64,000 nucleotides of DNA, taken from the NCBI GenBank assembly GCA_020073375.1, contig JAIQFG010000011.1, positions 1 through 64,000 of the forward strand, in the 5' to 3' direction. The first letter of the stretch is position 1, and each line of letters starts with the position of its first letter. This document shows, piece by piece, positions 15,641-49,166 of the stretch. Source of the stretch: Terriglobia bacterium (GTDB taxonomy: Bacteria > Acidobacteriota > Terriglobia > Acidiferrales > UBA7541). A program made the position numbers and the translations under genes. A model generated the notes under the pieces. That model had not been told where the DNA came from and made no database searches. It saw only the letters and a list, made by a program, of their open reading frames with translations.

Positions 15641-15666
15641 GGGTGTGGGCTGTACTTACAGTCCGC
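15641..15666 (+). repeat. Copy of the 26-bp GGGCTC palindrome (family B), diverged
   Basis: Begins GGGTGTGGGCTG, has the TACTT centre and ends CAGTCCGC. It is located immediately after the sigma factor stop. Compared with the copy at 49141-49166, one arm carries two changes, which leave only part of the stem pairing intact. Confidence 0.6.
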
Positions 15667-15696: not shown

Positions 15697-16227
15697 ATGA
15701 GCAGCACGCAAACATGCTCGGGAATGGAAAATAAATTAATCGCCTATCTGGACGGACGCGCCAAGCCCGCCGAACGCCGCGCCGTTGAAGAACATCTCGC
15801 GGCCTGCGCCGATTGCCGCCTGCGCGCCGAGGATTTTCGCGCGCTCTGGAGCGTGATGGAAGACCTTCCGGTGCTTTCACCATCCCCCGCGTTCGATGCG
15901 GCGCTGCGCACGAAGATTGCCAAGGAACCGGCGCTCCGCGGATTCTGGCAATGGCTGCCTTCGCCCCGGCTGGCGTTTGCCGTTACCGCGCTGGTGGTCA
16001 TGTCGGTGTGGCTCTCCTCCATGCCGCGCATCGCCGGCGGCCGAAACAAGATGGAGGCCAGGATAGAGGCCAAGGCAACCCAGGTGACGGCCGAAGCCGA
16101 TTACCGCATGATCCGCGACTTACCGGTGCTGGAAAATTACGACGTGCTTTCCAAGTTTGACGCGCTTTCCGAGCTCTCGGATTCTCCGGTTGGCGTGACG
16201 AAAGTAGGGGCCGGGCAAGCTCAGTAA
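15697..16227 (+). CDS. Anti-sigma factor, zinc-finger (zf-HC2) membrane protein
   Basis: Holds the preceding ECF sigma factor inactive at the membrane until a signal is sensed. The 176-aa protein has the zinc motif HLAACADC (His33, Cys37, Cys40) in a small helical N-terminal domain, a single membrane segment around 91-108 and a short periplasmic C-terminal part. The ATG at 15697 has GTGAGG upstream. Its stop overlaps the start of the next gene (TAATG). The signal sensed is unknown. Confidence 0.87.
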   Translation: MSSTQTCSGMENKLIAYLDGRAKPAERRAVEEHLAACADCRLRAEDFRALWSVMEDLPVLSPSPAFDAALRTKIAKEPALRGFWQWLPSPRLAFAVTALVVMSVWLSSMPRIAGGRNKMEARIEAKATQVTAEADYRMIRDLPVLENYDVLSKFDALSELSDSPVGVTKVGAGQAQ

Positions 16228-18270: not shown

Positions 18271-19299
18271 TTGGACGCGCAACATACGCCGGTGCTGGTC
18301 GAAGAGGTGATCGACTGGCTGGCCATCAAGCCCGGCGGGCTGTATGTGGACGCGACGCTGGGGCTCGGGGGACACGCAATAGAAATTGTCCGGCGGCTGG
18401 GGGTCGGGGGCAGGTTCGTGGGCCTGGATCGCGACGCGGCGGCACTGGAAATCGCGCGTGGCAGGCTGGCGGAATTTGGGGATAAGGTGACTTTGGTGCA
18501 CGCCAACTTTTCACAAATCGGCGAGGTGTTCGCGGAGCGCAGGCTCCCACCCGCCGACGGCGTGCTGGCGGACCTGGGCGTATCGAGCATGCAGCTGGAT
18601 CTGGCCGAGCGCGGCTTTTCGTTCCGCGCGCGCGGCCCGCTCGACATGCGCATGGACCGCGAGATGGAAGAGACGGCATCAGACATTGTGAACACGGTCG
18701 AGGAGAAAGAACTCGCCGACCTGCTCTATCAGTTGGCTGAAGAGCGGGATTCACGCAGAATCGCCAGGAGCATCGTTCGTGCGCGGCCCATCCGCGACAC
18801 CGAACACCTGGCAACGGTTGTGGCAGGGGCTCGAAAAGTAAGGGGAAGGCAGAAGCTGCATCCCGCGACAAAAACGTTTCTGGCGCTGCGGATTGCGGTG
18901 AATCGAGAGATGGAGGAACTCGGGCAGTTTCTTTCTAGAGTTCCTGCCACACTATCTCCCGGCGGGCGGTGGGTGGTGCTCAGCTACCACTCGCTTGAAG
19001 ACCGGCCCGTCAAGCAAGCGTTTCAGCGTCTGGCGCAGGAAGGCACGCTGAAAATTCTGACCAAAAAAGTCATTCAAGCCTCGGACGCGGAAATCGCGGC
19101 GAATCCGCGCGCGCGCAGCGTGAAGATGCGCGTTGCCGAGAAAACGGGTCTGGGCTCCGCTTGGAGCCCGGCGGAAGAAGAGGGTCTGGGCTCCGCTTGG
19201 AGCCCGGCGGAAGAAGAGGGTCTGGGCTCCGCTTGGAGCCCGGCTGAAAAAAGTCCCGACCAGCACGGGATGCCGCATGAGAAAGAGTGGCTGCAATGA
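18271..19299 (+). CDS. rsmH: 16S rRNA (cytosine-1402-N4)-methyltransferase RsmH with a repeat-derived tail
   Basis: Methylates N4 of C1402 in the ribosomal decoding site using S-adenosylmethionine. The 342-aa protein starts at TTG just after the mraZ stop. The SAM-binding loop is DATLGLGGHA, followed by ADLGVSSMQLD, the FRARGPLDMRM segment and SYHSLEDRPVKQ, all canonical. The family normally ends near KMRVAEK (about 291). Here the frame continues with three tandem 12-residue units (GLGSAWSPAEEE, twice exact, then GLGSAWSPAEKS) encoded by 36-bp repeats. Its stop overlaps the ftsL ATG (ATGA). Confidence 0.94.
   Translation: MDAQHTPVLVEEVIDWLAIKPGGLYVDATLGLGGHAIEIVRRLGVGGRFVGLDRDAAALEIARGRLAEFGDKVTLVHANFSQIGEVFAERRLPPADGVLADLGVSSMQLDLAERGFSFRARGPLDMRMDREMEETASDIVNTVEEKELADLLYQLAEERDSRRIARSIVRARPIRDTEHLATVVAGARKVRGRQKLHPATKTFLALRIAVNREMEELGQFLSRVPATLSPGGRWVVLSYHSLEDRPVKQAFQRLAQEGTLKILTKKVIQASDAEIAANPRARSVKMRVAEKTGLGSAWSPAEEEGLGSAWSPAEEEGLGSAWSPAEKSPDQHGMPHEKEWLQ
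19146..19254 (+). repeat. Three tandem 36-bp units inside rsmH, each carrying the family B palindrome
   Basis: Units are at 19147-19182, 19183-19218 and 19219-19254. The first two are identical and the third differs in its last bases. Each contains GGGCTCCGCTTGGAGCCC. Thirty-six bases equal twelve codons, so copy number can change without breaking the reading frame. Confidence 0.92.
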
Positions 19300-19815: not shown

Positions 19816-19841
19816 GGGTGCGGACTTCGCTTGGGGCCCGC
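19816..19841 (+). repeat. Copy of the family B palindrome before ftsI, diverged
   Basis: Starts GGGTGCGGACTT, has CGCTT in the centre and ends GGGGCCCGC. It lies 8 nt upstream of the ftsI start codon. A further weak palindrome (GGCAATGCATGTTGCC) lies at about 19699-19714 in the same spacer. Confidence 0.5.
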
Positions 19842-23487: not shown

Positions 23488-23515
23488 GTAGGGGCACGGC
23501 ATGCCGTGCCCCTAC
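23488..23515. repeat. Perfect 28-bp GTAG palindrome between murE and murF
   Basis: The left half is GTAGGGGCACGGCA and the right half is its exact reverse complement, ending CTAC. It is the most perfect REP-like unit in the window and sits 14 bp after the murE stop, within the dcw operon. Confidence 0.85.
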
Positions 23516-23621
23516 GGTGCAAGAACAGTGCAGCGGCATGGAACGTGCTTTTGATAAGAATGCAGGGACGCTGATTCGAGGGTAAACCCAGACCGGTGAA
23601 ACCCAGCCCCTTGAGGACGCT

Positions 23622-28756: not shown

Positions 28757-28761
28757 TTTTA

Positions 28762-28853
28762 GTAGGACAGGCTTCAGCCTGTCGGGTTGGTCCGAGGGCG
28801 ATCGATCTTGCCGTAAACAAAACCGACAGTCCGCCGCGGCGGACTGTCCTACT
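28762..28853. repeat. Inverted pair of GTAG palindromes (REPIN-like) between ftsW and murG
   Basis: First unit at 28762-28783: GTAG then GACAGGCTTCAGCCTGTC. Second unit at 28825-28853: GACAGTCCGCCGCGGCGGACTGTC followed by CTAC. Outer arms GTAGGACAG and CTGTCCTAC are complementary, while the inner palindromes differ in their core words. The pair leaves a 110-bp gap in an otherwise tightly packed operon. Confidence 0.85.
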
Positions 28854-28866
28854 GGGAAAGCGCTGA

Positions 28867-29997
28867 GTGACGCAAGCTGGAAAAAAAAGCTGGAAGCTGT
28901 TGATCGCTGGCGGCGGCACGGGCGGGCACGTATTTCCCGCGCTGGCCATCGCCCGGGAATGGATGTCGCGAGGGACGGAAAGGGAAGTCTTGTTCGTAGG
29001 AACGCAACGCGGACTGGAATCGCGCCTGGTGCCCGAGGCCGGGTTTCCGCTGGAGACGATTCGCTCGGCGGGCCTGAAAGGCATCGGCGGGATGCGCCTG
29101 GCGCGCAACGTTGCAAAGCTTGCCCCGGCGATGTGGGACTCCTTCGCGATTCTTCGCAAACACAAATTTTGCGCGGCACTCGGAGTCGGCGGATACGCCG
29201 CCGGGCCGATGATGCTGGCCGCTGTGCTGCGCGGCCTGCCCACCGTGGTCTTTGAGCCGAATGCCGAGCCCGGATTCACCAACCGCATTCTGGCGCGCAT
29301 GGCCACGCGCATCGCAACCGCCTATGAGGCACCGACAAAATTGTGGGGCGCCAAGGCCACGCTCACCGGCATTCCCGTGCGGCCGGAATTTTTCGCCATC
29401 GCCGAACGCGCCCCGTCCGCGCCGTTTCACATCCTGATCACCGGCGGCAGCCAGGGTGCGCTGGTCATTAACCGCACGCTGGTCGATGCCGCCGACCTGT
29501 TGGCGGCGAAGAAACATCTGCTTTCCATCGTGCACCAGACCGGTGAGCGCGACTATAATGCTGTGCGTGTGGCATATGCGCGGCGTGAAATCAACGCGGA
29601 GGTACTGCCCTTCATCGGAAACATGGCGGAACGTTTTGCCCAGGCCGATCTGATTGTCTGCCGCGCGGGCGCGATCACGGCCGCGGAAGTTGCCGCAGCC
29701 GGGCGCGCCGCCATCTTCATCCCCTTCGGCGCTTCCACCGACAGCCACCAGTTGCGCAACGCCCAGGAAATGGAGCGGCAGGGCGCAGCGCGATTGATTC
29801 CGGAGCCCCAGCTCACCGCGGAACGTCTGACGCAGGAAATTTTCAGTTTGCTCGATGCGCCCGCAGATTTACAGGCGATGGCCGCGAACGCGCGCCGCCT
29901 GTCCAGGCCCCGCGCCGTGCAGGAAATTGTGGACATGGTCGAAGGGATTCGGGCTCCGCTTGGAGCCGGCCAGGGAAAGGCCGCGCAGGAAATTTGA
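28867..29997 (+). CDS. murG: UDP-GlcNAc: undecaprenyl-PP-MurNAc-pentapeptide GlcNAc transferase MurG
   Basis: Makes lipid II from lipid I on the cytoplasmic face of the inner membrane. The 376-aa GT28 protein starts at GTG (GGAAAG upstream) and has the GGGTGGHVFPALAIA loop near the N-terminus, GVGGYAAGP, the second loop ITGGSQGA and the donor-site segment LIVCRAGAITAAEVAAAGRAAIFIPF. The last 20 residues, after the conserved end, are encoded by a copy of the family B palindrome (EGIRAPLGAGQ). A 76-bp gap with another palindrome precedes murC. Confidence 0.95.
   Translation: MTQAGKKSWKLLIAGGGTGGHVFPALAIAREWMSRGTEREVLFVGTQRGLESRLVPEAGFPLETIRSAGLKGIGGMRLARNVAKLAPAMWDSFAILRKHKFCAALGVGGYAAGPMMLAAVLRGLPTVVFEPNAEPGFTNRILARMATRIATAYEAPTKLWGAKATLTGIPVRPEFFAIAERAPSAPFHILITGGSQGALVINRTLVDAADLLAAKKHLLSIVHQTGERDYNAVRVAYARREINAEVLPFIGNMAERFAQADLIVCRAGAITAAEVAAAGRAAIFIPFGASTDSHQLRNAQEMERQGAARLIPEPQLTAERLTQEIFSLLDAPADLQAMAANARRLSRPRAVQEIVDMVEGIRAPLGAGQGKAAQEI
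29944..29970 (+). repeat. Family B palindrome inside the 3' end of murG
   Basis: GGGCTCCGCTTGGAGCC is read here in the frame CGG-GCT-CCG-CTT-GGA-GCC (RAPLGA). The same bases in rsmH are read GGC-TCC-GCT-TGG-AGC-CCG (GSAWSP). The use of different frames shows that similarity is at DNA level and does not reflect a shared protein motif. Confidence 0.8.
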
Positions 29998-29998
29998 G

Positions 29999-30026
29999 GT
30001 AGCGCCCGCCTGAAGGCGGGCGCTAC
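29999..30026. repeat. GTAG palindrome between murG and murC
   Basis: GTAGCGCCCGCC, a TGAA loop, and GGCGGGCGCTAC: 12-bp perfect arms. It starts 2 nt after the murG stop. A transcript hairpin here could affect stability or coupling of murG and murC, but that is inference. Confidence 0.85.
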
Positions 30027-30073
30027 AGAAAGAAGCCGATTGTGCTAGTGGTTGAAAAAGGGGCCTTACTTTC

Positions 30074-40797: not shown

Positions 40798-40823
40798 GCG
40801 GGCTTCAAGTAAAGCCCGCACCC
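40798..40823 (-). repeat. Family B palindrome with perfect 8-bp arms
   Basis: GCGGGCTT at 40798-40805 pairs with AAGCCCGC at 40812-40819. On the minus strand it reads GGGTGCGGGCTT, TACTTG, AAGCCCGC and matches the copy at 49141. It lies 6 nt before the next gene's start codon. Confidence 0.7.
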
Positions 40824-49140: not shown

Positions 49141-49166
49141 GGGTGTGGGCTCTACTTGGAGCCCGC
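49141..49166 (+). repeat. Family B palindrome, reference copy
   Basis: GGGTGT then GGGCTC-TACTTG-GAGCCC-GC. It sits in the divergent gap between nagZ and the GHMP kinase gene, touching the nagZ start codon, and may separate or influence both promoters. Confidence 0.75.

Follow-up and report, generated by a model that had tools for sequence, protein, structure and literature searches.

A dispersed intergenic palindrome very probably supplied the tandem C-terminal tail of RsmH in a Terriglobia bacterium

Palindromic DNA elements that are read as parts of proteins are best known from intracellular parasites, for example Rickettsia and Wolbachia. A stretch of 64,000 nucleotides from a Terriglobia bacterium (hereafter the window) raises the question of how such a palindrome came to form the end of a conserved enzyme. 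The open reading frame at 18271–19299 of the forward strand encodes a protein of 342 residues identified as RsmH (NCBIfam TIGR00006, E = 1.1e-90). The profile match spans residues 3–291, and solved RsmH structures align to residues 4–292 and stop there or shortly after. The initial annotation had described what follows as the tandem tail of an essential methyltransferase; RsmH is dispensable in E. coli, so the word essential is doubtful and finds no support here.

The tail itself was confirmed. Past the conserved end of RsmH lie three head-to-tail units of 36 bp (19146–19253), all in frame on the forward strand, of which the first (19146–19181) and the second (19182–19217) encode GLGSAWSPAEEE and the third (19218–19253) encodes GLGSAWSPAEKS. 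Units 1 and 2 are identical across 36 bp and unit 3 differs from them only in its last, 3' third; Tandem Repeats Finder reported the array at 19146–19248 with a period of 36, 2.9 copies, 98% matches and a score of 199. The palindrome core lies at 19152–19169 (forward strand) in unit 1 and again at 19188–19205 and 19224–19241. Downstream of the units the protein ends in PDQHGMPHEKEWLQ (19254–19299, forward strand), which the congener peptide and the gene overlap mark as the ancestral C-terminus: the TGA stop of rsmH overlaps the ATG of the next, ftsL-like gene as ATGA, an overlap also present in congeners. Judging by the open frame, the tail would be translated. An AlphaFold2 model of RsmH has a confident core, and residues 296–342 have a pLDDT below 50; the tail is most likely a disordered, flexible appendage, and its peptide, of the type GLGSAWSPAEEEGLGSAWSPAEEE, is probably neutral as well as disordered.

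A search of 61 genomes recovered RsmH in 58. In all five of the other species of the genus that were searched (G001–G005, named Terriglobia/Candidatus Acidiferrum and Acidobacteria metagenome genomes), whose RsmH is 86–96% identical to the present one in alignment, the site is empty. Their proteins end in RVAEK-xx-PDQHGxPHEKEWLQ or a close variant without the repeat, the downstream C-terminus being the same or nearly so; the between-species comparison thus gives zero units in the congeners versus three here. The repeat tail is also absent from the more distant RsmH C-termini listed. The initial annotation had reasoned that a recent origin from a DNA element would be unlikely if close relatives all carried the tail, and the result is the opposite. 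In a blastn alignment with the nearest relative, G005, positions 19142 and 19254 correspond to 22929 and 22936 of that genome, and a segment of 111 bp (19143–19253, forward strand) takes the place of 6 bp, a net gain of 105 bp. Deletion of two 36-bp units from the insert leaves exactly +33 bp, which is the length inserted at several sites elsewhere, and the history of the locus is therefore best read as 33 + 36 + 36.

We consider it highly probable that the tail arose by one transposition-like insertion of a 33-bp dispersed palindrome followed by two tandem duplications of 36 bp, and that the same family has entered other genes. One copy (approximately CGGGTCTGGGCTCCGCTTGGAGCCCGGCTGAA) would have entered rsmH at its non-conserved 3' end, and the empty sites in the five congeners show that this happened after the split from the nearest sequenced relative. 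With a length divisible by three and no stop in the frame used, the insert would have left intact both the reading frame and the overlap of rsmH with the gene that follows. Two later duplications, for which slippage at the hairpin or unequal recombination there is the likely route, would have brought the number of units to three, in agreement with the net length and the identity of the units; the order of insertion and duplications is the most parsimonious one. The earlier proposal that a mobile or spreading palindrome entered the 3' end of rsmH and then expanded in steps that keep the frame is thus borne out, the mobility being deduced from filled and empty sites.

The family is well defined. 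The consensus of 115 sampled copies reads CGGGTGC-GGGCTC-TACTTG-GAGCCC-GC and then an A-rich stretch, with GGGCTCTACTTGGAGCCC as its core and an unpaired, conserved 5' tag, CGGGT. The stem covaries at three pairs (-2/19, -1/18 and 5/12), where both sides vary and pairing is kept; at pair 5/12, C-G occurs 86 times, G-C 16 times, and T-A and A-T twice each. With up to three mismatches, the palindrome GGGCTCCGCTTGGAGCCC has six matches in the window versus 0.12 expected, and no shuffle reached six. In the whole genome, 66 matches were found with up to two mismatches (none for the reversed control), and the element consensus gave 138 matches with three mismatches (control, 6). Strict copies number 75 in this genome (G000), 75 in G005 and 74 in G004, whose genome is 71% complete, and two to six in the remaining congeners (6, 4 and 2 across G001, G002 and G003, with six in G001). 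The other 55 genomes, from the family, order and class, gave three single matches and the reversed control zero. From these counts, the family is restricted to the genus and numerous in three species only. A literature search found no published paper with the core sequence.

That the same palindrome occurs in non-coding DNA, as first annotated, is right. In the window a consensus copy (GGGCTCTACTTGGAGCCC) is intergenic at 49147–49164 on the forward strand, and a copy with a compensated stem (GGGCTTTACTTGAAGCCC) is intergenic at 40800–40817 on the reverse strand; both sites are empty in G005. The first is 33 bp longer than the empty site with no target duplication visible between them, a second intergenic filled site is 31 bp longer than its empty counterpart, and no clear target-site duplication was seen at the filled and empty sites compared. 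A degenerate copy (GGGCTGTACTTACAGTCC) lies between two genes at 15647–15664 (forward strand), and another copy (19822–19839, forward strand) lies directly upstream of the ftsI start, where G005 has it and G003, G001 and G004 do not.

Placement was counted over 81 sites sampled in the genome, together carrying 115 copies. Genes were called by a home-made codon-usage score that set a few starts wrongly (C129, C149 and C84 are examples in which the element copy lies upstream of the true start). Seventy sites are outside predicted genes and 11 inside, versus 77% coding in the sampled DNA (p ~ 2e-33), an excess that would fit either selective loss of harmful insertions or a bias towards spacers. 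The element has the orientation of the flanking genes in 31 cases and the opposite one in 11 (p = 0.003), and 19 sites are between divergent genes and only three between convergent ones; this bias and scarcity may reflect an RNA function or a bias of insertion. A copy in the leader of a 16S rRNA operon (L048:2360-2400, L137) is common to two species. Placement, orientation, the compensatory changes in the hairpin and the shared rRNA leader copy could all be accommodated by a functional RNA or regulatory hairpin, acting in mRNA processing, translation or attenuation and selected near gene starts, with the coding copies as by-products or as regulators of the downstream gene. We think this unlikely, however, as sister species differ at several compared sites, three congeners are nearly without copies, and a regulator would not be expected inside many unrelated open reading frames. 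A search of the window with Rfam matched two tRNAs only and gave no RNA family for the palindrome.

The arrays likewise support an expansion that keeps the frame. They occur at 25 of the 81 sites, with same-strand spacings mainly of 32–35. Spacings divisible by three make up five of five in coding DNA (two arrays) versus eight of 26 in non-coding DNA (Fisher p = 0.008), and both coding arrays, in rsmH and on contig C83, grew by 33 or 36 only.

By comparison with relatives, in-frame insertions of the element were found in nine further genes of this genome. With the same family in frame in at least nine other genes, rsmH would be one case of a general process. In murG the element is at the C-terminus (29951–29968, forward strand), present in G005 and absent in G003; this insertion was checked against two relatives only, and the other in-gene cases relied on were likewise checked against relatives. 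Insertions of exactly 33 bp, or 11 residues, are found in der (common to G005), in a sulfite-oxidase-like gene and a DoxX/MauE-like gene (each shared with a relative), and in hscA/dnaK and argD (this genome only). An 11-residue insertion in glnD is also confined to this genome, a weak second glnD match (C16:47940) having been left out of the count, and in ispE the insert measures 33 bp in G005 and 42 bp here. An unnamed gene (G000:C83:106811-106930, L170) carries an in-frame array in which GLYLEPTGKKS is repeated with spacings of 36, 33 and 33, at a site that is empty in G003 and G005. The typical insert is thus 33 bp at several sites and is divisible by three by itself. The peptides derived from the element vary (GLGSAWSP, GLYLEP, RALLGAR-like, GLQVEP) because the element lies in either orientation and is read in several frames, as expected for insertion at the level of DNA. 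We propose that the dispersed palindrome is tolerated where a short peptide is joined to a terminus or a loop.

These insertions bear on two other explanations of the tail. If it were a functional extension of RsmH, selected and evolved as protein, one would understand why the frame is open through three units and why both duplications are in frame. Such an origin is nevertheless very improbable, given that the tail is missing in five of five congeners, that the same DNA is found between genes and, read in different frames, within other genes, that units 1 and 2 are identical in DNA, and that the tail is predicted to be disordered. The metagenome bin is a draft of 176 contigs in which repeats with a 36-bp period can be miscounted, and the number of rsmH units could be an estimate made in assembly. 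An assembly artefact behind the array or the insertion is nonetheless hardly credible: no break in the reading frame occurs across the insert, typical reads are longer than the 108-bp array, and the insertions in murG, der and ispE and two more recur in an independently assembled species.

Two further loci were noted in relatives. In G001, with its six strict copies, an oligopeptide-type ABC ATPase (G001:C38, L100) carries the element twice in frame, near 15772 and near 15821 (minus strand), both times between LSGGxRQR and Walker B. In G005, a second rsmH-like fragment of about 61 residues (HPATKTFLALRIAVNR; G005:C8:30836-31088, L095) lies among several element copies and is possibly a captured or decayed piece.

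Insertion of a dispersed palindrome raises the question of what moves it, and we assume that an enzyme acting in trans copies the 33-bp unit to new places. A mobiliser was sought by searching the six congeners with PF01797 (Y1_Tnp). This genome has five such genes, and no Y1_Tnp gene in the six congeners has the element at its flanks, apart from a chance neighbour at the rRNA leader. That gene, a RAYT/IS200-type candidate (L048/L137), was rejected; it has its own, different hairpins, and the nearby copy belongs to the 16S rRNA leader. Classical GTAG-like REP hairpins of other families are present in the window at 30000–30028, 28760–28850 and 23490–23516, and those in the spacers at 30000 and 28760 are absent in G005 and G003. 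A classical REP family moved by its own RAYT transposase would have the size of the present element, its hairpin and conserved terminal tag, and its dispersed copies between and within genes, and the five Y1_Tnp genes would suit it. We find it quite unlikely all the same, since the tag CGGGT is neither GTAG nor CGTC, the Y1_Tnp genes lack flanking copies, G002 and G001 have Y1_Tnp genes yet few copies, and the arrays are head-to-tail and not inverted dimers. Our view is evenly divided on whether the element is an active, non-autonomous palindrome of 33 bp, frame-neutral at each insertion by virtue of its length and moved by some enzyme, that continues to supply housekeeping proteins with in-frame peptides and tandem peptide repeats and forms a class apart from both the GTAG/CGTC REPs and the Rickettsia palindromic elements (RPEs).

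What is described here is a new coding-palindrome family in a soil acidobacterium, from a genus known from environmental metagenomes. Because close relatives have filled and empty sites, the insertion of 33 bp, the retention of frame and the tandem growth are directly readable, and the family shows a clear path by which selfish intergenic DNA can become new segments of proteins, together with a natural series on the cost of a tail.

Among the closest known systems, the palindromic elements of Rickettsia and Wolbachia (work of Ogata, Claverie and colleagues, with reviews in PMC2229807 and PMC10969869) are similar in that dispersed palindromes are found both between genes and in frame within unrelated conserved genes, where the host protein tolerates them, and empty sites accompany the in-frame insertions here. 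RPEs are, however, about 105–150 bp long and belong to obligate intracellular bacteria (PMC2229807), whereas the unit here is 33 bp, comes from an environmental-metagenome genus and expands in tandem within a gene. REPs comprise GTAG and CGTC classes and include intragenic REPs and clusters that code for tens of residues (PMC3733652). The present element, a palindrome of 33–36 bp in many, mostly extragenic copies, some of them in open reading frames, shares with them the 20–40 bp hairpin, the dispersal in many copies and the conserved tag at one end, but the tag is CGGGT, the clusters are head-to-tail, and the PF01797 search found no link to a transposase of the RAYT kind that goes with the GTAG class. 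REPs also favour unidirectional and convergent spacers (PMC3733652), whereas the element here avoids convergent pairs. As in PARCELs, tandem palindromic DNA units are read as tandem peptide repeats; those are amphipathic repeats of 25 residues (75 nt) in membrane-associated proteins (PMC2996958), whereas these are probably disordered units of 12 residues in housekeeping enzymes and have their origin in a family of intergenic repeats. Coding minisatellites and VNTRs likewise have in-frame tandem units with a period divisible by three, but the unit here can be traced to a dispersed palindrome resembling a mobile element, and the sites of relatives are empty. At 33 bp the element is also unlike a MITE (70–300 bp, with terminal inverted repeats and a target-site duplication). 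Since both the length of RPEs and the tag of REPs differ from what is found here, we regard the element as a new family of the RPE and intragenic-REP kind.
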